A stretch of 33,189 bases of DNA from a virus. Numbering within the stretch: the stretch's first letter is position 1; every line of letters starts with the position of its first letter. The stretch spans positions 1 to 33,189 of IMG/VR virus record IMGVR_UViG_3300030117_003040, one strand, 5' to 3'. The position numbers and the translations under genes are program-made. Of the stretch, positions 4,012 to 33,189 are shown piece after piece. The notes under the pieces were generated by a model. That model did no database searches. It was not told where the DNA came from and saw only the letters and a program-made list of their open reading frames with translations.

Positions 4012-6657
4012 TTAAATAAAGCCAAGAAGGCCCAGACCGCCGCCAATAGCAGCGCCAAGAGGGCCACCAACAGCACCGATTTGCGAACCTAAGGCCGCAC
4101 CTGATAGCGCACCACCTAAGCCGCTTTGCAGCGCTGATGGACCACCACCTGTCTGCGTTGTTGTTTGACCAAACAAACCGCCACCCATGCCAGCAGCGCT
4201 AAGAAGCGCATTGATACGGTTTTGATCCAACACATTTTGCTGCTGCTGCTGCGCCGTAACCGCGTCAAGCCCAGCTTGAACGATGCCTCTTTCAAGACCG
4301 CCAAGCTGTGCTGCCTGACTGATAATCGCCTGATCAGCCCCAAGCAATCCTGGTGCCTGCCCGATAGCCGCAAGCCTTGCTCTGGCGTCTGCCTCGGAAG
4401 CCGCTGTAAGCTGATTGGCAAGCGTTGCATCAATCTGCCTGCTTGCCTGCTGAGCCTGCAAGGCTCTGCCCAAGTCACTCGTTGCCAAATCTGCAACAGC
4501 CCCTGCGCCTTGCAACTGCCTTGCAAGGTCTGTCTGCTCGGCTCCCAACAATGACTGTGCAATATCTGCCTGCAATCCTGTCTGTTGCCTGCTTGCGTCT
4601 GTCAATAATCCTGCAAGCTGTGCATCTCTCGCAAGCCCTACATTTGCAGCATCTACAAGCTGACCTTCCCCTGCTAATTGTCTTGCAAGATCAGCTTGCC
4701 CTAGCTCAGCCGCAGTTGTTTGGCCCGTTAAGGCTCTTTGAAGGTCTGCTTGTTGCAGTCCTGCCGCTGTTGTTGCACCCTGAACTTGCCTAGCTAGATT
4801 AGCCGCACCAATGTCTGCCGCTGCTTGCTGACCCGTTAAGGCCCTTTGTAAGTTTTGCTGCTGCGCTGCAAGCGCTGCTTGCTCGCTTGATACGGCCCTG
4901 CCTAAATCAGCCTGCTGCAGCCCTGCGGCTGTTGTTGCGCCTGTTAAACCTCTTGCAAGGTCTGCTTGCTGCAAGCCCGCCGCGCTTTGAGCAGCCTGTA
5001 GTGCTCGCCCAATATTGTCGGCCTCTACGCCTGCTATTGCTTGCTGCCCCGAAAGCGCCCTTCCCAAGTCAGCCTGCTGTAATCCCGCAGCACTTGTTGC
5101 GCCCGTTAGACCCCTAGCAAGGTCTGCTTGCTGTATCCCTGCAGCGCTTTGTGCAGCCTGTAGTGCTCGCCCAATATTGTCAGCCTCTATGCCTGCTATT
5201 GCCTGCTGTCCCGACAACGCCCTTCCTAAGTCAGCCTGTTGTAGCCCTGCCGCTGTTGTTGCGCCCGATAGACCTCTTGCAAGATCTGCTTGCTGTATCC
5301 CTGCAGCGCTTTGTGCAGCCTGTAATGCTCTGTTAATGTCTGCTTGTTGTGCGCTTACACCAAGCTCTGCCGCCGCAAGCTGACGTCCAATGTCTTGTCC
5401 TGAAACCGATCCAAGAGCCTGTGCTGCTTGTAACTGTCTTGCTTGGTCTTGCTGTAAGTTTTGAGCCAAAATAGGCGCGGAAGCTGCTGCAATGCCCTGA
5501 CCCAAACTGTCAGCAAAACTGCCAGAACCTAATCGACCACCAAGGGCATACTGCGAGCTTACCCTATCAACAGCCCCGCCGATTGCGTTGTCAATTTGCT
5601 GCTGAAGTAACGGATTTGTGCCGCCACTTGCTAAGCCTGTCAGTAAGTTCGTTGCAGCGTTTTGCTGTGCTGCGATATCAGCAACACCAGAGGTGTCCAC
5701 GCCACGATTACCTGCAGCAACAATATTGCTTGCATCCGTTGCCCGTTGCGCTGCATCAAGAATGCCTTGTAAATCTGTCTGTGCGCCTGCAGCACCCGCT
5801 AAACCACTAGTGCCTACAGCGCGATTACCTGCAGCAACAATATTGCTTGCGTCAGTAGCACGTTGCGCTGCATTTAGCACACCCTGCAAATCTGTTTGTG
5901 CGCCTGCAGCACCCGCTAAACCAGTAGTGCCTACAGCCCGATTACCTGCCGCGACTATGTTGCTTGCATCCGTTGCCCGTTGCGCTGCGTCAAGAACACC
6001 CTGTAAATCTGTCTGCGCACCACCAAGAGCACGTAGCTGGGCTGGATCAACGGCCTGATTGGCTGCATTAATAAGATTTAGTGCACTTACTTGTTGATTG
6101 GCGGCTGTCGTGATTGGCGATGTATCTACACCAGCAGCACCCGCATCCGTTATGCCTGTTGTATCAATGCCTGCAGCTGCTGCATTTGCCAAGCCCGTTG
6201 TGTCTGCTCGATTTCCAACAAGATTGGTAAGCTGACTTGTGTCGATTTGAGAGCCTAAGAGGTTTTGCAGATTAGTTAAATTAGCGCCTGCGTTGGCTGC
6301 GCTTGTCAGGCCCGTTGCATCAACAGTGCCTGCAGTCAAATCACCCAGGTTCAATTGGTTTTGCAGCGCCGTAGTATCTATCTGGCCTGCGCCCATCAAG
6401 TCGCTAAGGTTACTCTCAGCACTAGAAAGAAACCCTGGCTGATTACGAACATTATTAAGCGCTCCAAAGAGTGCTTCGGTTTCTGCTGAGCTTAGCCTTT
6501 GCGTTTGGGCCAAAGGTGCAGTCGGAGCAAAGGCATTTATTGCACCAAACGCAGCCTGAAACGGATTGAAATCAGTATAAGCCTGCGTAAGAGCCTGCTC
6601 TACTGCAGGGGGTAATGCCTGAACATTAGTGACAGTTGAGTTACTACCCTTACCCAT
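4012..6657 (-). CDS. Repeat-rich internal virion protein (881 aa)
   Basis: An 881-residue Ala/Gln/Leu-rich protein. The first 200 residues contain short degenerate motifs of the form D(T/A)(T/S)(G/Q)L. Three 39-residue repeats (TDLQGVLDAAQRATDASN...) follow, then a Gly/Ser segment (GGAVDRVSSQYALGGRLGSG), then thirteen 18-residue units of the form AAGLQQADLxRAL(S/T)GxxT, which should make a long continuous helix. The C-terminus is Gly/Ala-rich and hydrophobic, ending GAAIGGGLGLLGFI, and could insert in a membrane. Composition and position suggest a protein ejected with DNA, such as a trans-envelope tube component. The start codon follows a GNAT-like gene by one base. Unrelated phages carry similarly composed proteins, but I cannot name a family. 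Confidence 0.65.
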   Translation of the reverse strand: MGKGSNSTVTNVQALPPAVEQALTQAYTDFNPFQAAFGAINAFAPTAPLAQTQRLSSAETEALFGALNNVRNQPGFLSSAESNLSDLMGAGQIDTTALQNQLNLGDLTAGTVDATGLTSAANAGANLTNLQNLLGSQIDTSQLTNLVGNRADTTGLANAAAAGIDTTGITDAGAAGVDTSPITTAANQQVSALNLINAANQAVDPAQLRALGGAQTDLQGVLDAAQRATDASNIVAAGNRAVGTTGLAGAAGAQTDLQGVLNAAQRATDASNIVAAGNRAVGTSGLAGAAGAQTDLQGILDAAQRATDASNIVAAGNRGVDTSGVADIAAQQNAATNLLTGLASGGTNPLLQQQIDNAIGGAVDRVSSQYALGGRLGSGSFADSLGQGIAAASAPILAQNLQQDQARQLQAAQALGSVSGQDIGRQLAAAELGVSAQQADINRALQAAQSAAGIQQADLARGLSGATTAAGLQQADLGRALSGQQAIAGIEADNIGRALQAAQSAAGIQQADLARGLTGATSAAGLQQADLGRALSGQQAIAGVEADNIGRALQAAQSAAGLQQADLARGLTGATTAAGLQQADLGRAVSSEQAALAAQQQNLQRALTGQQAAADIGAANLARQVQGATTAAGLQQADLQRALTGQTTAAELGQADLARQLAGEGQLVDAANVGLARDAQLAGLLTDASRQQTGLQADIAQSLLGAEQTDLARQLQGAGAVADLATSDLGRALQAQQASRQIDATLANQLTAASEADARARLAAIGQAPGLLGADQAIISQAAQLGGLERGIVQAGLDAVTAQQQQQNVLDQNRINALLSAAGMGGGLFGQTTTQTGGGPSALQSGLGGALSGAALGSQIGAVGGPLGAAIGGGLGLLGFI
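4660..5361 (-). repeat. 13 tandem 54-bp coding repeats (18-aa helical units)
   Basis: Thirteen consecutive in-frame units of exactly 18 residues fill this stretch. The consensus is AAGLQQADLGRALSGQQA. Units 2-4 and 5-7 form a near-identical 54-residue (162-bp) higher-order repeat (ARGLSGATT / GRALSGQQA / GRALQAAQS), which shows recent duplication. Units 9-13 have diverged. Confidence 0.95.
5662..6012 (-). repeat. Three tandem 117-bp coding repeats (39-aa units)
   Basis: Three head-to-tail copies of a 39-residue unit start at 6012, 5895 and 5778 and begin TDLQG(V/I)L(D/N)AAQRATDASN. The first two are almost identical and the third diverges at its end. They lie inside the 881-residue virion protein, upstream of its 18-residue repeat array. 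Confidence 0.95.
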
Positions 6658-10943: not shown

Positions 10944-12133
10944 CTATGAACCGTTTAAGCCAATTACCGCAGCATGGGCCTTGGGAGCTTTCACGATCAA
11001 AGTGTACTCGGACACAATAGCGAACCTGGTCGCATCCCCAACGGGAGCAACATCAGTTGCGCTGAACATGCGTCCAGGCAATGACCCAATACACACATAG
11101 TCTGTGTCTATTAGATACATTTCGGAATTTGGACATGTCCTGTCTACTGTCACGCTTAACTCTCCGAAGTCGGAGAGATATAGGCTGCAAAATTTTCACC
11201 TTAGTTCGCTAATCTAAGACCGCCTTTCGGCTGCTTTACTTCACAGTAAAGATAAGACCATATCATCATCCTATCAGGATGCTCTGCGCTTCGGATCGCT
11301 TGATCCTACTTCCTTTCGGAATGGCCGTTGAACCTTCCCCTTATAGGGCTTGGCTGCTGATTTTCTCAAAGAGATGTCCCAGCAATTCACAGAGTTTTTC
11401 GAGATAGGTTGCCCTATCAAGCCGCCAATTTAACGGAGCCTATTATGCTTGCTTCGCGTGGAGCAGTGTAAGTAATCTGGTTTGTAGAAACAGAACCAGA
11501 GGACAAGCCAGAAAAGTTTTGCTTGTTAGTTGGTGACATCAACAACATGCTTGGATTGCCGCCATCGTTATAGGCTGCAAGCATTGCTGCATCAATCTTA
11601 GCAAGCGTTAATGCTGCTGCTGTACCCGTAAGGTCAGCCGTATCACTACCGTCGCCAGTTGCCGCCGCCATATCAGACGGTGCGTCTACGTTTGTAATCC
11701 ACGTAATTAGCTTTGCAGCCTTGCGCGGATCAGACGTTGACTTCGCTTCGTTCTTGTAAAGCGATTTATTTATATCACGCCGTTGTTCGATACCCTTGAG
11801 CACCTTGACGTATGCGGTTTCTTTATCGCGCCCCGCTTTGTCCACGGTATCAAGCGTATTGGAAACGCTTGCGGCCTGTACGGCAATTTGGTGAACGTTG
11901 GTAAGTCGGGTTGTGGCGCTGGGGTTTGCATACGAATAATCAGCACCCTCGTTTGCGTGGTTGGTATCAACTGCACTAGCAAGTTCTTGGACTTGCCATT
12001 CAGTTATAATACCCCGTGTTGTTTCCTTTGTAGCATTGGAAAACAGTGGCGTTTCGTCGGGATCTACGCGATATATAATATCCGAAAGGTCTTCCCTTTC
12101 GCCAATCGCATTGCTGGTTAAAAAGGTCGCCAT
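10944..12133 (-). CDS. Major capsid protein, SU10-type (DUF5309), split by group I intron
   Basis: Exon 1 runs 12133-11433 and exon 2 runs 11187-10944. Joined they give 945 bases, a 314-residue protein. Exon 1 starts MATFLTSNAIGEREDLSDII after a perfect GGAGG site and encodes the family pattern DPDETPLFS, WQVQELASA, and MLLMSPTNKQNFSG. Exon 2 supplies the typical end LYLSDFGELSV, a receptor-like strand set and VSEYTLIVKAPKAHAAVIGL. The joined sequence at the junction reads IIGSV-SLYLSDFGEL, which aligns with the NAVDYYIHDFG-like region of this capsid family. Without splicing, exon 1 ends prematurely (KLAA) within the intron and exon 2 lacks a start. The protein builds the icosahedral shell. 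The splice position is inferred to within a few bases. Confidence 0.9.
11188..11432 (-). ncRNA. Group I self-splicing intron in the capsid gene
   Basis: The RNA shows the ordered core elements of group I introns: P at 11387-11376 (AATTGCTGGGAC), Q at 11362-11348 (AATCAGCAGCCAAGC), R at 11334-11321 (GGTTCAACGGCCAT) and S at 11267-11256 (GATGATATGGTC). P7 pairs GGCCAU with AUGGUC. P1 pairs exon CCGUU with guide GGCGG, giving the U-G pair at the splice site. P2 is GATAGG-GCAA-CCTATC. Peripheral hairpins near the 3' end include GCC-GAAA-GGC and CTTTAC-TGTGAA-GTAAAG. The last intron base is inferred as G at 11188. The intron has about 245 bases and no open frame for a homing endonuclease. In-frame exon joining supports these borders; the end could shift to 11185 (GCAG) without changing the frame. 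Confidence 0.92.
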
Positions 12134-24225: not shown

Positions 24226-25059
24226 TTATTCCATCCATCCAAATTCTGCAGTGTGGATGCTGGGCCATCCTGTTTCTATGACGCCTGTTTTATATGCGTC
24301 TGCGATTTCATCTATTGCGCCACAGGCAAGCTGAAAGCCGTACTCCAACAAGTCTTGCGGCAACTCTATGACCTGCGTTCTGTGCGGATATTCGCGCTCA
24401 ACGCAGAAAAACAAAAAGCGCTTCACGGGCATGCCGAGAGTTTCCATTACGTTTCTATAAAACGCTGCTTGCACGTGCCATTTCATCCGTTCGATATGCT
24501 TATTCATTTGGTGGGGTTCTGGCTTTGGCCCCGTTTTTACATCGATGCAAATCCCACCACGTTTGATGTACATATCAGGTCGGGCTTTTTGGATAAGCTT
24601 GCATACTAAATGCGGCCTTTGATGCTTATCCATTTCATTGACTTGCATTTGAACAAACAGGCTTTGCTCAACGGCGTGCTTGCGTTTTTTAAATGCTGCC
24701 ATTGCTTTGTTGTTAAGCATGGCCTGGTGCATTCCCATGACGCGCTTGTAGTCTGCGGAAGGCAGGGCTATGCGGTTGGTACGTTGTGCTTCTTCAACGG
24801 CTTCTTTGTATTCCTTAGCTGCGCGTGTTTTACCGCCGCATATTGGCATGTGTCCTTCAAGGTAAAGCGAGTGCAATGCTGTACCTGCGTCTAGGATTGC
24901 TTGGTTTTTTATCGCTGGTTTATTGAACGCATAGAAGAGGTCTTCCATGCAAACGTCTTTGACCATTGTTGAACTAATGACGGGTATTCCATTAACCTCT
25001 TTAATAGAATGGTAGTCTTCGTTGGACATGTTTGTGTGAATGCCGAAGGGATAGCTCAT
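24226..25059 (-). CDS. RecE-like PD-(D/E)XK exonuclease (277 aa)
   Basis: A 277-residue protein. The motifs GTALHSLYLEG (near residue 58), KLIQKARPDMYIKRG (about 163-177), CIDVKTG (the E/DxK core, about 180-186) and HVQAAFYRNVM (about 201-211) match the exonuclease VIII / RecE family, which trims DNA ends to 3' single strands for recombination. Position beside an SSB and a RuvC-like resolvase supports a recombination module. It starts in ATGA with the zinc-ribbon gene. Confidence 0.8.
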   Translation of the reverse strand: MSYPFGIHTNMSNEDYHSIKEVNGIPVISSTMVKDVCMEDLFYAFNKPAIKNQAILDAGTALHSLYLEGHMPICGGKTRAAKEYKEAVEEAQRTNRIALPSADYKRVMGMHQAMLNNKAMAAFKKRKHAVEQSLFVQMQVNEMDKHQRPHLVCKLIQKARPDMYIKRGGICIDVKTGPKPEPHQMNKHIERMKWHVQAAFYRNVMETLGMPVKRFLFFCVEREYPHRTQVIELPQDLLEYGFQLACGAIDEIADAYKTGVIETGWPSIHTAEFGWME

Positions 25060-25232
25060 TTATCACTCACCAGCGTAACACCCTCGCCATTACATTCAGG
25101 GCAAGGCTCTTTGACCTCAATTGGCCCACCGCCTGCATTTTTTGTTGGCCAAATGATATAATCCTCAGAGTAGAAATAACCGTCATCGCATTTGATGCCG
25201 TCTTGCTCGTATTCACATTTTTTTAGTGGCAT
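25056..25232 (-). CDS. Small zinc-ribbon protein (58 aa)
   Basis: A 58-residue protein MPLKKCEYEQDGIKCDDGYF ... EPCPECNGEGVTLVSDK. Two Cys pairs (C6 and C15; CPEC near residue 44, of the DnaJ-type CPxCxGxG) could bind one zinc ion. It overlaps the RuvC-like gene by 20 bases and the nuclease gene by ATGA, so it is part of the recombination operon. Confidence 0.75.
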   Translation of the reverse strand: MPLKKCEYEQDGIKCDDGYFYSEDYIIWPTKNAGGGPIEVKEPCPECNGEGVTLVSDK

Positions 25233-25683
25233 TTGCTAACCCCTCTGCATATGCCGACATCAGCAAAGCTTCTGCGCGGTGTTCGTCTTTTTTTCTTGAA
25301 AGATGTTGTTGTTGCTTGGGATAAAGCTGCTGAGCAAGTCGCCGCGCCCCATCTTTATCTTGAGGTACGTTAAATGCGTTTTTCCACTTGCTGGGCGTAA
25401 CGATGCGGTATGGCACCCTCGTAACAGTCAAACACGCTAGTATCTGCCCGTATGCCATTCCAATTTTAAAAGCAGATGCTACGCCTTGCTTGGGTCTGCT
25501 ACTTTGCTTTTCGATCACGCACAAGCTGACTGGCACACTTCTGAGAATATCTATTAGACCAGCGCAATCCACGCCTTGGTCTGTGAACACTGGCAGGTCA
25601 TGCACTTCTGACCACCCACCTTGCACCAACGCAACGCCGCCTTGGCGATATCCAGGGTCTATTCCTGCATAACAATCAGGCAT
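25213..25683 (-). CDS. RuvC-like Holliday-junction resolvase (156 aa)
   Basis: A 156-residue RNase H-fold nuclease. Acidic catalytic residues lie in GIDPGYRQGG (near residue 8), CVIEKQ (near residue 58) and KKDEHRAEALLM (near residue 135), with a KWKNAF basic helix between them as in phage RuvC relatives. Its job is to cut branched DNA before packaging or in recombination. The ATG at 25683 is chosen and overlaps the Cro-like gene by eight bases (a TTG two codons earlier is in frame). Confidence 0.82.
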   Translation of the reverse strand: MPDCYAGIDPGYRQGGVALVQGGWSEVHDLPVFTDQGVDCAGLIDILRSVPVSLCVIEKQSSRPKQGVASAFKIGMAYGQILACLTVTRVPYRIVTPSKWKNAFNVPQDKDGARRLAQQLYPKQQQHLSRKKDEHRAEALLMSAYAEGLANATKKM

Positions 25684-25909
25684 CTTCAACGAGCCTCGCC
25701 AGCGCTTCAGCGTGATCTTTGTCGAATGTTTCCCAAGCGCTGCAAGGTACTTTACCTAGCGTTGCCTTTTCTATGCGTGCGCCGATAATTACGCTTGGAA
25801 GCGTTTTACCCGTTAAATACCTGCTTAAAGTAGGCTGAGACACGCCTATTCTGTCGGCAAAAGTGGTTTGACTTACCTCTGCCGCTGCTAAAAATTCATA
25901 AAGCTGCAT
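25676..25909 (-). CDS. Cro-like HTH regulator (77 aa)
   Basis: A 77-residue protein. Residues 10-45 form a helix-turn-helix of the CI/Cro type (VSQTTFADRIGVSQPTLSRY LTGKTLPSVI). It is the first gene of the early minus-strand operon and faces the repressor gene across a 182-base divergent region. This arrangement is that of cro in lambdoid switches. It should bind the shared operators and allow early gene expression. Confidence 0.85.
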   Translation of the reverse strand: MQLYEFLAAAEVSQTTFADRIGVSQPTLSRYLTGKTLPSVIIGARIEKATLGKVPCSAWETFDKDHAEALARLVEDA

Positions 25910-26091: not shown

Positions 26092-26751
26092 ATGCACACA
26101 AATATTCACCGCGTACGCACACTAAAGCGAATATCCCAAGTCGAACTAGCAGAGCTTGCAAAAGTCAGCCAGTCACAATTGAGCAAATATGAAAAAGGAG
26201 AAGTGTTGCGACCTAGCTACGGAAAGTTGGTTCGAATTGCTGAAGCTTTAGGCTGCACTATTGAAGAGATCACTGATGAAGTCGAAAATCGCGCAGAAAC
26301 AGCCTTCTCAAGCTTTACACAGACTGCAGGCGCTGTGTTCATTCCTCTATATGTGGAGAAGCAGAACATGGACATAAAGTTTAGTCACGGCGAAGGCGTC
26401 GTAATACGACCAGAAGGCACTCAACAGCAAATTAAAAAGCCAAGCTTTTTGGATTATTCCGACCAAGCATATGCTATTCAAACGTACACAGAAGCAATGT
26501 CACCGCGCTACAATCAGGGCGACACGCTCTTTGTTGACCCACAGTTAACGCCGCAGGTCAACGATGATGTAGTGATTCTTTTTAGCGTTGAAAAACACCT
26601 TGTCGGGATGGTCAGACAGGTTTGCCAAACAAGCGACGAAACTAACGAGATGCGCGTAAAAGACTTGCAGTCAGGTAAGACGGTCAAGTTTCAAAAGACT
26701 GACCTATATGCGACACACGTTGTTGTTGGCATGAAAAAGCACAGGGGTTAA
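26092..26751 (+). CDS. CI-like repressor with degenerate S24 domain (219 aa)
   Basis: A 219-residue phage repressor. Residues 5-62 form an XRE-type helix-turn-helix (RTLKRISQVELAELAKVSQS QLSKYEKGEV). The C-terminal half has the LexA/CI S24 fold (QAYAIQTYTEAMSPRYNQGD and DVVILFSVEKHLVGMVRQV). At the place of the catalytic Ser in the usual SMxP motif stands Ala (AMSP), and the Lys position appears to be Arg (GMVR). So self-cleavage upon SOS is unlikely. It is preceded by the switch region and is the only plus-strand gene there. It should keep the prophage silent. Confidence 0.85.
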   Translation: MHTNIHRVRTLKRISQVELAELAKVSQSQLSKYEKGEVLRPSYGKLVRIAEALGCTIEEITDEVENRAETAFSSFTQTAGAVFIPLYVEKQNMDIKFSHGEGVVIRPEGTQQQIKKPSFLDYSDQAYAIQTYTEAMSPRYNQGDTLFVDPQLTPQVNDDVVILFSVEKHLVGMVRQVCQTSDETNEMRVKDLQSGKTVKFQKTDLYATHVVVGMKKHRG

Positions 26752-26767
26752 GCGCCCCTATTGCGCC

Positions 26768-27868
26768 TTAAAGCTCCACAACATAAGCATCTTCAAGCAC
26801 AACGTCATTGCGCACATCTCGGTAATACTTTTCGGTCACTGAGCTACCCATTTGATGGCCTGCAAGCTTCTGGATGTGCTCTTTCATCAGTTGACGCTCT
26901 GCAAGCTCGTTGATGTAAAACCTGCGCAATGCGTGAAAGCCCCACTTGCGTGTGCCTGCTTTTCGTTGCGCTTTGTATAGCACCTGTTTAAGCACGTCTG
27001 CGCTATTAAGAAGTCTGCCATGCTTGGTTGTAAAAATATACCTGTCGTTTTCTGTGGCCTCGCAGGCAAGCTTATGCTCGCTTAACAGCGCTCTTTGCTT
27101 TGTGCTTATGCGTATTTTGCGCTCACTATCAAACGTCTTGGTTGTTTGATTGTCCTTACCATCCACGACTGAACGGCGCACAGAAACTATACCGTGTTCA
27201 ACGTCACCCCAGGCAAGTCCAAGCACCTCGCTAATACGCATGCCGCATTCCGCTGCGAAGTTGTAAATGAGCTTATCGCGCACCGTTTCAAGCGCAAGCA
27301 ACACTGCAAGCGTTTCTGCGCGGTCTGGGGTAATTTTCTCGCGCTTTTTACTGTGCCGCATGGTTTGCACATGTTCCTTGCTGGGCGGCGTCCAGTTTGC
27401 AATCTTGCTTTTGAGATACAGAAAGTTGATCACACGAAAGACAAGCGACACTATGGGCGCAATGGTTTGACCTGACAAATCGTGCGTATGCTTGAGTTCT
27501 AACTGAAACTCACCGATTTCTCTTGCTGTAATTTCTGGGGCTTGCATGGCTCCGAAAAACGGTAAGATGTACCTTCTTAGATTGCTCTCAATATACTTCT
27601 TACGCTTTTGACGTATTTCACCGTCTGCAAGCATGCGCTCTAGCTCAGCGTTAAAGTACATTTCAACAAGCACATCAAAGCGATGCCCACGGGAGACTAT
27701 ACGCCCCCCGACAAGCTCCATTCTAAGCTGTTGTTTGTAATGCTCTGGATCAATGCCCCTTGGAACTTTGCGGCGTTTCAGCTTTCCTTTCTGTGTCCAT
27801 CTCACTTGCCAGCCCCGATTGGGGCAGTAATGGGTGTAAAGTTCTGTATGGCTCCCAAGAATTTGCAT
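26768..27868 (-). CDS. int: Tyrosine integrase (366 aa)
   Basis: A 366-residue tyrosine recombinase. The N-terminal 170 residues hold the arm- and core-binding domains. Catalytic residues can be placed: Arg in GMRISEVLGLAWGDV (near residue 212), HxxR in FHALRRFYINELA (near 305), His in KLAGHQMGSSVT (near 328) and the Tyr nucleophile in EKYYRDV (near 347). It integrates the phage at the tRNA-Arg gene whose 3' half lies upstream. It ends head to tail with the repressor gene (17 bases apart). A short GAGG site precedes the start. Confidence 0.93.
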   Translation of the reverse strand: MQILGSHTELYTHYCPNRGWQVRWTQKGKLKRRKVPRGIDPEHYKQQLRMELVGGRIVSRGHRFDVLVEMYFNAELERMLADGEIRQKRKKYIESNLRRYILPFFGAMQAPEITAREIGEFQLELKHTHDLSGQTIAPIVSLVFRVINFLYLKSKIANWTPPSKEHVQTMRHSKKREKITPDRAETLAVLLALETVRDKLIYNFAAECGMRISEVLGLAWGDVEHGIVSVRRSVVDGKDNQTTKTFDSERKIRISTKQRALLSEHKLACEATENDRYIFTTKHGRLLNSADVLKQVLYKAQRKAGTRKWGFHALRRFYINELAERQLMKEHIQKLAGHQMGSSVTEKYYRDVRNDVVLEDAYVVEL

Positions 27869-28406: not shown

Positions 28407-29087
28407 TTACTCTTTCCAAAGATCACTTGCCTTCTTTACATATCTGCTTTTGACAAGCCATCCATAAATTTTTTCGGTTTCTTTTCTTCTATGGTCAAGG
28501 CCGTTGTAGCCGCCGTTAATTCTTTTAGTAAGGCGCTTTATGGTGTCATCGCTTACACCTTCGTCACATATCTTCCAGAGATTGTTTCGATTAAAAAACC
28601 AGATGGCACTTTCCATTGCGTAATCAGTTCCAACTAAATCTGGATTGCTCATAATTTCCGGCAATTTCATTTCCCTTGAAAACGCTTGGTAATTATTGCG
28701 ACCAGTACATTGTAAAAAACCGCGGCCTCTAAATTTCCAGCCATCGCCTTCCATAATGTTGCCAAGTTTACCGTTTTTCGATCTGTATGCGTCATTATAA
28801 ACGATATTAGCAATTTTTTCAGGTTGTCGTTCACAGGCTTTTGCATCGTCTTTTGTGCGAAAATATCTTGTACCAAAAACCTTTTGCAGACGATCAGCAG
28901 AATAGTTTAAATTTTCAGTGACTATTGAAAAAGACCCGCTTTCATGAACGACTTGGCCAAGCATGTGTGCTGCTCGAAATGTCTTCCATTTGTAAAAGTT
29001 TGCAATAGCATTTGCCGTCATCGGGCCAAACTCACCATCGGGAGTAGTGCCGCATTTACTTTGCAATTGTTTTAATGCTTCGCTCAT
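28407..29087 (-). CDS. GH19 chitinase-type endolysin (226 aa)
   Basis: A 226-residue glycoside hydrolase family 19 lysozyme. The catalytic Glu stands in VVHESGSFSIV (near residue 49), and FRGRGFLQCTGRNNY and AMESAIWFF are typical of phage endolysins of this family. Residues 8-30 resemble a small peptidoglycan-binding repeat (KCGTTPDGEFGPMTANAIAN). It cuts peptidoglycan at lysis, released by the holin-like proteins upstream. Its ATG overlaps the stop of the 37-residue gene (ATGA). Confidence 0.9.
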   Translation of the reverse strand: MSEALKQLQSKCGTTPDGEFGPMTANAIANFYKWKTFRAAHMLGQVVHESGSFSIVTENLNYSADRLQKVFGTRYFRTKDDAKACERQPEKIANIVYNDAYRSKNGKLGNIMEGDGWKFRGRGFLQCTGRNNYQAFSREMKLPEIMSNPDLVGTDYAMESAIWFFNRNNLWKICDEGVSDDTIKRLTKRINGGYNGLDHRRKETEKIYGWLVKSRYVKKASDLWKE

Positions 29088-29413: not shown

Positions 29414-29815
29414 TTATTTTGTTAAGCCTCGTTGCTTCTCATAGGTTCTAAGCCCACCAATCCCAAGCATACCTCCCAGAACAGTCAACAAAGTTCCCAT
29501 ATCAAAGTCAGGAAGCTCAGGAAGCTCTGCACCCGCAAAGCTTGCCCCGAAAACAATGAGGTCTTTCACCACAAAATGGTACGCAAATGCTATCGCACAA
29601 ACCCACCCCACAGCAGGACGCCAACCACCCTTGAAAAACGAACCAGATGCCGCCTCTGCCTTGTTAATCTCTAGCTGCGCTATTAATGCCTCTTGGGCGT
29701 GTCGGTCAGACATCGTGGCTATCTCATGCGCCAACTTTGCTGCCTGGTCTTTGTCGGTTACTACCTTGTCAATAATGCCCGTCACTGGGCCAATTAGTGC
29801 ATTAAGTATGCTCAT
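29414..29815 (-). CDS. 3-TM holin, GTA holin-like (133 aa)
   Basis: A 133-residue protein with an amphipathic N-terminus, an acidic helix (HEIATMSDRHAQEALIAQLE), then GGWRPAVGWVCAIAFAYHFV and TLLTVLGGMLGIGGLRTYEK as membrane segments. The (G)WRPxxGW motif identifies the GTA_holin_3TM/phage holin group. Holins open the inner membrane and time lysis. It overlaps the upstream basic-protein frame by four bases. Confidence 0.85.
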   Translation of the reverse strand: MSILNALIGPVTGIIDKVVTDKDQAAKLAHEIATMSDRHAQEALIAQLEINKAEAASGSFFKGGWRPAVGWVCAIAFAYHFVVKDLIVFGASFAGAELPELPDFDMGTLLTVLGGMLGIGGLRTYEKQRGLTK

Positions 29816-31557: not shown

Positions 31558-33189
31558 TTAAGCTCCTTCCAATGCTGTGATACGTGCTTCTAATTCTTGG
31601 ATTGTTTTGACCAAAAGAGGCACAAGTTTCGATTGGTCTATGCCTTGCATGACTGGATTACCGTCACCATCAACTTCGTCTTTTGTTCCTGTGATAGCCT
31701 CTGGAACTATTGCAGAAACCTCATGTGCTAAGAAGCCATCAACTGTTGTATCTGCGTCCACGATAAAATTAAAACGCTTTGGCTTTAGCTGTTTCAGACG
31801 TGCAGTTGCTCCTGTCATTTCTGCTACGTTCTCTTTTAGGCGATAGTCTGAAGATGTGTTGAAGGCTGTTGCTGATCCATTTACTACTATATCCCCGATT
31901 TTACCGTTTGGGTTGAAAAACTCCGCAAGGCCTTGGTTGCCCGTGTTTGTTGTGCCTAACTTAAGAACCATTCTGCCGTTGGTATTTGGATCAAATGCTG
32001 CACCGCCTGCGCTACTTGATGGTACAGCAGCGCCAGCCCCAAAAATAACATTGCCGCTGCTGTCGATGCGCATGGCTTCTGCGCCACCCGTAGAAAATGC
32101 AAGCGTGTCGGATGCTGCACGATACATACCTGTGTCGGGGTCACTGTAGAATGTATGTGTTGGAGCAGAGTTAGAGCCGTTTGTTGGACCTACTGCACCG
32201 CTTACAGACAATAAGACTGCGGTATCGGGCGTCATGCCAATCCCCACGTCGCCGCCAGATGAAACACGAAATTTTTCACTTAGAGAACCAGACTCGCCAG
32301 TATTTATTACAAAAGCGCTGCTTAAATTAGAAGAAGTATTTACATCAGCAACAAAACCAATTTGCCCCTGATTTTGCACAGTGCCGCCATTACGCTCACC
32401 CGAAAAAAGTATAGTTGAGCCGAAGCCTGTTGTCGTTGTACCTGAAGATGTATGCTCAATTTTAAGCATATTTTCCGTCGAATTCGTGCGACTGCTTTGC
32501 TTTTTAACAACAAGACGAGAAGTCGGAGAATCTTCTCCAATCCCAACGTCACCGCTGCTGTTAATGCGCATGCGTTCTGTGAGGGTATCTGAGCTAGTAA
32601 CATTACCTCCATTCGTAGCAAAATATAAATCATTTCCACTAGCTGCAGATGTAAATTGTGACCCGATTGCTGCACCTCTGTTTGATCCTGCCGTACCTGC
32701 TGTAAAATACATCTCAGCAGTAATACCGTGAGCAGAACCATTTGCGTTGTGTATCCTTAATCCACTGTATCCAGAAAATTGTGTGGTAGAGGAGTTATCC
32801 CCTTCTATTTCTAACGGAGCATCTGGCGAATTCGTCCCAATCCCTACGTTGCCGGTGCTGGTAATTATTACTCTGTCATCCCCTCCTGCCCCTAAGTTTA
32901 GCCGATCAAGATCGTGGCTATACTGTACATAACCTCGGTATGCTTGATTTCCTGACGTTCCGTCTGCAAAGAAAAGATTACCAGAGCTTGAAGCACTAGA
33001 TCGTACTGTTATTCCACGAGCACCAGAACTGTTTCCAACAACTAAATCATCTGCTGATGAACTAAAATCTCCTGGAGTGTCTTGGGCGATTCCAACCCTG
33101 CCGCTGCTGTCGATGGTCATGCGAGTAGTCGAACCACCTGTTCCTATGATCGTGCTAGTACCATTTGCGCCAAAGAAAGCCCCACCGCT
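31558..33189 (-). CDS. Tail fibre, C-terminal part with S74 chaperone (543 aa, enters from window edge)
   Basis: An open frame of 543 residues to the window end, starting inside a gene (first residues SGGAFFGANGT). It has repeated VGIG-type blades (MTIDSSGRVGIAQDTPGDFS, SGDVGIGEDSPTSRLVVKK, SGNVIFGAGAAV) and a C-terminal peptidase S74 domain with SSDYRLKENVAEM, FNFIVDADTTVDGFLAHEV and SIQ-like helix LVKTIQELEARITALEGA. S74 is the intramolecular chaperone of endosialidase-type fibres that cuts itself off after trimer folding; the Ser of SDYRLKEN is the catalytic residue. Probably the C-terminus of the fibre seen at the window start. Confidence 0.88.
   Translation of the reverse strand, partial: SGGAFFGANGTSTIIGTGGSTTRMTIDSSGRVGIAQDTPGDFSSSADDLVVGNSSGARGITVRSSASSSGNLFFADGTSGNQAYRGYVQYSHDLDRLNLGAGGDDRVIITSTGNVGIGTNSPDAPLEIEGDNSSTTQFSGYSGLRIHNANGSAHGITAEMYFTAGTAGSNRGAAIGSQFTSAASGNDLYFATNGGNVTSSDTLTERMRINSSGDVGIGEDSPTSRLVVKKQSSRTNSTENMLKIEHTSSGTTTTGFGSTILFSGERNGGTVQNQGQIGFVADVNTSSNLSSAFVINTGESGSLSEKFRVSSGGDVGIGMTPDTAVLLSVSGAVGPTNGSNSAPTHTFYSDPDTGMYRAASDTLAFSTGGAEAMRIDSSGNVIFGAGAAVPSSSAGGAAFDPNTNGRMVLKLGTTNTGNQGLAEFFNPNGKIGDIVVNGSATAFNTSSDYRLKENVAEMTGATARLKQLKPKRFNFIVDADTTVDGFLAHEVSAIVPEAITGTKDEVDGDGNPVMQGIDQSKLVPLLVKTIQELEARITALEGA

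Follow-up and report, generated by a model that had tools for sequence, protein, structure and literature searches.

An endonuclease-free group I intron in the major capsid protein gene of an SU10-type phage, and its relatives at other capsid gene sites

The interrupted capsid gene

The window, the whole 33,189-nt stretch analysed here (IMG/VR record IMGVR_UViG_3300030117_003040), carries on its minus strand a major capsid protein (MCP) gene whose reading frame opens with ATG at 12133, is closed by TGA at 11419-11417, and continues from 11187 in another frame. Exon 1 (11433-12133, minus strand, 701 nt) comprises codons 1-233 and two bases of codon 234, and exon 2 (10944-11187, minus strand) completes codon 234 with its third base and adds 80 codons and the stop. 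Joining 12133-11433 to 11187-10944 yields a 314-aa protein containing SLYLSDFGEL that matches nearly the whole SU10_MCP model (Pfam PF17236) at 238.6 bits (E 1.3e-70), compared with 159.1 and 63.5 bits for exon 1 and exon 2 alone, respectively. This spliced, SU10-type product resembles its uninterrupted relatives, and homologues are collinear with exon 1. The predicted splice junction (11433/11187) joins GGCTCCGT to CAGCCTATA.

The two exons are separated by a 245-nt group I intron without an endonuclease (11188-11432, minus strand), inserted after the second base of MCP codon 234 at a position termed site D. Rfam RF00028 aligns in full length to 11446-11234 on the minus strand with 91.9 bits (E 1.5e-22), which places the conserved core (P3-P8) above the curated threshold (gathering score 50). 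Read from the sequence, P1 (11422-11436, minus) pairs 5' exon CCGU (11436-11433) with the guide GCGG (11425-11422) and ends in the U11433.G11425 pair at the 5' splice site, and P10 (11185-11428, minus) pairs 3' exon CAG (11187-11185) with UUG (11428-11426). P7 (11256-11326, minus), also read directly, pairs GGCCA (11326-11322) with UGGUC (11260-11256) and is GACUA/UAGUC in relatives, a compensatory change. In the consensus fold, P3 (11282-11394, minus; 11394-11388 with 11288-11282) has compensatory changes at 5 of 7 pairs and is broken by no sequence, and P4 (11355-11384, minus; 11384-11379 with 11360-11355) likewise has compensatory changes and no breaks. Across 19 related introns, double changes that keep the pairing were found at 29 of 38 predicted pairs. 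Minimum-energy folding of the window intron (z -2.68) does not by itself show the whole group I architecture, so covariance evidence was used for the fold. The borders are considered exact because the restored frame, the U that precedes the intron (U11433), its final base (G11188) and the P1 with U11433.G11425 all agree.

The first-pass annotation, made from the letters alone, had proposed an intron of this class at 11188-11432, with a P7 pair, a P1 guide bearing the U-G splice pair, no homing endonuclease and a restored SLYLSDFGEL, and in all these respects it was right, to the base in its coordinates; no endonuclease reading frame was found in the 245 nt. The two comparisons by which it had suggested checking the reading also bear it out, in that the full covariance model matches with its conserved core and intron-free SU10-type relatives have an intact MCP that lacks the segment. 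Chance is excluded by the covariance score, by seven relatives whose intron lies at this very base, and by about 36 others in which the MCP is uninterrupted over the portion covered. A frameshift, pseudogene or assembly error would also leave a broken frame, which is the sole point in its favour; that explanation was rejected, and its probability is practically nil, given the RF00028 match, the same insertion in seven other contigs and the exact restoration of the frame.

Splicing of the window intron is inferred from sequence and covariation. The intron would be transcribed within the structural-gene mRNA and fold; a guanosine-dependent cut would follow U11433, which would then be joined to C11187 to give the 314-aa MCP. 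In the unspliced message the in-frame TGA (11417-11419, minus strand) is the sixth codon, counting from the codon split at the 5' splice site, and closes the reading frame ahead of the ribozyme core. An in-frame stop lies within 8 codons of the 5' splice site in every related intron with well-placed borders, and in a representative intron set the mean stop position was 4.8 codons, compared with 15.7 in shuffles (none of 2,000 shuffles was as low). Early in-frame stops are known from other protein-gene group I introns, where they are read as aiding folding via ribosome stalling (PMC3984707). The stop pattern is observed, and from it we infer that an early stop would allow exon 1 to be translated and the ribosome to be released ahead of the P3-P8 core. 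Such stops fit the keeping of ribosomes off the ribozyme better than they fit a timer. The suggestion of the first-pass annotation that splicing efficiency might control lytic timing thus found no support: the host is a structural gene for which high expression is expected and whose output splicing could limit, but the nearest relative lacks the intron, as do other close relatives, intron sites and numbers vary among relatives, and the sequence suggests no sensor, so a role in capsid timing is very improbable.

Elsewhere in the window, a CI-like repressor with an S24 peptidase domain (plus strand) adjoins a tyrosine integrase (minus strand) at 26092-27868, and the phage is thus probably temperate. 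A match to a GTA-type 3TM holin lies at 29414-29815, near a weak GH19-like match (28407-29087) that may represent an endolysin. An 881-aa protein (4012-6657) contains many near-repeats (AGIQQADLARGL..., AAGAQTDLQGVL...) and has no Pfam match. Long reading frames on the same strand run off both ends (1-752 and 31558-33189), and the contig possibly represents an almost complete genome in permuted form. A host was sought through prophages, and no host is claimed because the nearest prophage MCP, from an Opitutae metagenome-assembled genome, is only 49% identical.

Introns in related capsid genes

Relatives of the window MCP were recovered at 71 loci in a search of a viral collection. Interruptions, 44 in total and often two per gene, occur in 29 of these, all within the MCP gene; about 36 loci are uninterrupted over the MCP portion covered, and a few more are too short to judge. 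All 44 interruptions are group I introns by RF00028 (60-108 bits), and all are preceded by T and end in G, two bases that were favoured in border scoring. They fall at four positions: site A, after MCP coding base 68 (22 loci); site B, after base 322 (14 loci); site C, after base 354 (1 locus); and site D, after base 701 (L045, L052, L058, L061, L062, L065 and L071, in addition to the window). The combinations A+B, A+D and B+D are found in the window clade. When 48 whole records were searched with RF00028 for further group I introns, none was found except the MCP intron of phage C72C1 itself.

The sequences of the window clade are metagenomic contigs, and C72C1 (L073, OQ984150.1; MCP 50% identical), the sole named phage record, has the site-B intron only. 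The record divides the MCP into two 'major head protein' pieces and places three small reading frames without assigned function in the gap, a split attributable to the unrecognised intron. The sister clade of C72C1 was queried with an exon, which should keep the ranking independent of intron presence, and introns were found in 2 of 80 loci, some of the loci being too short to judge. A high intron load is thus a trait of certain clades and not of all SU10-type phages.

More heavily interrupted genes were found with a DNA pattern for the group I core that is blind to gene identity, which recovered 85 introns among the matches listed, about 10 of them in SU10-type MCP genes. Four introns interrupt the SU10-type MCP genes of L168 and L200 (L356), and L357 and L358, whose exon is identical to that of L200, have four MCP introns each. 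Removal of the four introns of L357 in silico gives a protein of 325 aa, the length of the intact homologue L360. After mapping, insertion sites in SU10-type MCPs number about 17, distant members included, and P1 helices of 4-7 bp with a terminal U.G were found at 20 of 21 introns of the further sites. Splice borders of L172, L181, L363, L367, L278 and L073 were placed with wider limits, the automatic placement for L279 was wrong, and L199 was left out of the counts as its borders were misplaced; for the second intron of L168 (codon 52), P1 is poor (2 bp) and the borders are uncertain. Local conservation at the insertion sites is 0.726 versus 0.589 for random positions (P <5e-5, or P 0.002 with neighbouring sites merged). 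The placement of the roughly 17 sites at conserved positions agrees with the known rule that introns occupy conserved sites (PMC2814812).

A 33-nt pattern typical of the window-intron lineage, used without regard to gene identity on the viral collection, matched 23 loci, all of them MCP genes (17 SU10_MCP, 2 Phage_capsid_2, 2 PHROG 1357 and 2 PHROG 267), and a pattern for the site-A lineage matched 20 loci, all SU10-type MCP genes. Judged by such patterns, the window-intron lineage is confined to phage MCP genes in the data searched. Close relatives of the window intron in PHROG 267, Phage_capsid_2 and PHROG 1357 MCP genes were seen in L444, L463, L446, L456, L447 and L454, with two introns each in L444, L463 and L456. 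Two gene-blind background samples from IMG/VR were composed of introns with commoner cores than those of the window lineage. By Pfam, capsid families made up about 21 of 77 (~27%) and 29 of 79 (~37%) of the downstream exons in the first and second sample, respectively, and DNA polymerase A accounted for 13 in the second, each among the matches listed. MCP families were the commonest group I intron hosts among the matches listed in both samples, and Mu-like gpT and P22-type coat genes were among the intron-hosting MCPs; amoC and psbA genes were also hosts.

Gain, loss and spread

Intron presence is patchy. With flanks masked, the MCP exon tree requires at least 16 (site A), 10 (site B) and 6 (site D) changes to explain it, and the nearest relative of the window, L002 (84% DNA and 95% protein identity), has no intron. 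The window intron is 95.1% identical to that of L061, and the exons of the two are 69.4% identical overall and 43.0% at third codon positions; the high intron identity could partly reflect constraint on the ribozyme.

The exon sequence around the sites differs between loci that have and lack an intron. In greedily chosen have/lack pairs, mismatch counts at positions up to 25 nt from the site versus those more than 60 nt away were 156/900 versus 811/13050 (site A), 69/600 versus 521/8700 (site B) and 64/350 versus 505/5075 (site D); because the pairs retain some phylogenetic dependence, the associated P values are too small and indicative only. In pairs that share an intron the flanks are closer than the rest of the gene, with a near-to-far mismatch ratio of about 0.4. 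Two pairs show this most clearly: L050 and L048, which are 99.2% identical and differ in the site-A intron, have mismatches at -6, +1, +4, +7 and +10 (5 of 50 positions near the site versus 2 of 725 far from it), and L059 and L029 differ by a run of substitutions from -60 to +1. The window and L002 differ by a substituted stretch from about -27 to +25. The P1/P10 pairing fixes about 7 nt of adjoining exon and could mimic a short tract, but the flank substitutions extend over 10-60 nt and mostly lie three nucleotides apart. They are therefore read as co-conversion tracts, which implies that the intron was gained or removed by short-tract recombination at the DNA level. Polymorphic presence with co-converted flanks, one hallmark of mobile group I introns, is thus found here; the window intron encodes no homing endonuclease, the other hallmark. 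Patchy sites among near-identical phages indicate that introns keep invading and leaving the MCP gene. The first-pass annotation had called the intron mobile only with help, if at all; no endonuclease was found, in keeping with the first part, and the frequent gain and loss with co-converted flanks speak against the second.

The intron tree groups by site, with 17 changes for 17 sites (minimum possible 16), and related introns at different sites nest together (20/51/77/144 and 234/238/240/284/118). This grouping and nesting indicate that spread is mostly allelic, with rare moves to a new site accompanied by a new guide sequence. We consider it highly probable that a self-splicing intron of an MCP lineage spreads as DNA by allelic recombination, with an early stop shielding its core and with rare moves to new sites. 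An intron-bearing MCP allele would recombine with an intron-free allele over conserved flanks, and the transfer would carry the intron together with about 10-60 nt of exon, the length of the observed tracts; loss would be the same recombination reversed. Rare moves with a changed guide would account for the roughly 17 sites and for genes that hold as many as four introns. The recombination might be triggered by the phage's own machinery or by a cleaving enzyme from elsewhere. The window contains an exonuclease VIII-like gene (24226-25059) and a RuvC-like Holliday junction resolvase gene (25213-25689), both candidates for intron-moving recombination, and as these proteins are encoded, phage recombination functions could suffice for the spread. 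A more specific version is put forward only tentatively and is rather doubtful: that small tailed-phage MCP genes form a dedicated niche for an endonuclease-free lineage, moved by phage recombination with no homing endonuclease and with occasional jumps to new positions, whether within one MCP gene or in another.

The trigger might instead be collaborative homing, in which a free-standing endonuclease encoded elsewhere cuts intron-free MCP sites and repair copies the intron. Such a pathway is known for endonuclease-free introns (PMC3984707), other introns with the same core in the viral collection adjoin endonuclease genes, and it would explain the co-converted flanks, the site-specific spread seen in the grouping by site, and insertion at conserved codons. 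However, about 17 sites would require many specificities, and none of five endonuclease families was matched in the searched records, several contigs of more than 30 kb included: in Pfam searches with working controls, on contigs that may be incomplete, HNH and GIY-YIG were not found in 28 records, and HNH_3, LAGLIDADG_2 and LAGLIDADG_3 were not found in 36 records, the window being among both sets. Endonuclease_7 also gave no match, but its positive control was silent and the result carries little weight. We regard collaborative homing as a serious possibility that falls short of an even chance. Reverse splicing of the excised intron RNA into abundant MCP mRNA through 4-6 nt of pairing, followed by reverse transcription and recombination, could account for ectopic moves within MCP genes and for a bias towards an abundant transcript; a pairing of 4-7 nt suffices for P1, and the intron tree does nest relatives from different sites. 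It would leave the recipient flanks unchanged, yet the flanks were replaced along with the intron; no reverse transcriptase was found among the window proteins scanned, and the pathway has no direct experimental evidence according to PMC3984707. It is unlikely as the general route, and may lie behind the rare site changes. An account by old insertions that were inherited vertically and lost repeatedly, with the intron sequence strongly constrained, draws on the sharing of site B by C72C1 and L222, and of site A with L172, across widely diverged MCPs, from which some insertions may be old. As a full account it is quite improbable, for the patchy presence among near-identical phages comes with flank replacement, and intron identity lies far above that of third codon positions.

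Relation to known introns and significance

Both a capsid gene intron of probable group I type and small endonuclease-free introns have been described in phages before (PMC3706429; PMC12363816). The MCP intron of mycobacteriophage LittleE, whose splicing was shown by RT-PCR and N-terminal sequencing, resembles the present one in its host gene, in its exon-end U and intron-end G, and in being most likely group I, although its type is not firmly assigned; it is a single intron of 819 bp with an endonuclease gene, whereas the window intron is 245 nt long, has no endonuclease, and has relatives with up to four introns per gene, inserted at many positions (PMC3706429). Closer in size is the 265-bp endonuclease-free intron in the minor tail gene of BAKA and Optimus, also a virion gene, whose splicing was shown by RT-PCR; it occupies another gene and site, and no colonisation of multiple sites was reported (PMC3706429). 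Jug phages have many small introns (mean ~206 nt), several per gene, for example in terL, and 37 of 76 predicted introns are backed by metatranscriptomes (PMC12363816). Their genomes are 360-402 kb, with introns in many genes and hundreds of mostly stand-alone endonucleases across the set, while the phages of the window clade are of about 33 kb, with introns in the MCP only and endonucleases not found. In collaborative (trans) homing an endonuclease-free intron likewise spreads with co-conversion of flanks, but no partner endonuclease was found for the MCP introns in the records searched (PMC3984707). Group I introns of rDNA similarly occupy many sites in one gene region, with related introns at different sites; the present introns differ in that they interrupt a phage gene coding for protein and exchange their flanks (PMC1299323). 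Set against the literature examined, in a search that was incomplete, four features are new: MCP genes with as many as four endonuclease-free introns, some 17 insertion sites within a single MCP family, the restriction of a lineage to MCP genes, and pairs of near-identical phages in which its transfer is recorded.

Among the matches listed in two gene-blind samples, about one third of the group I introns of phages lie in MCP genes, which are ahead of DNA polymerase genes in this respect. Gene finders without splicing will break intron-bearing MCP genes, as in the C72C1 record. Four introns within about 1 kb of coding sequence indicate the extent of interruption that a gene expected to be highly expressed may tolerate if splicing is efficient. 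How introns without endonucleases persist and spread is a standing question, and the many natural pairs of near-identical phages distinguished by one intron, whose conversion tracts can be read within one short gene, would allow simple co-infection tests of it.
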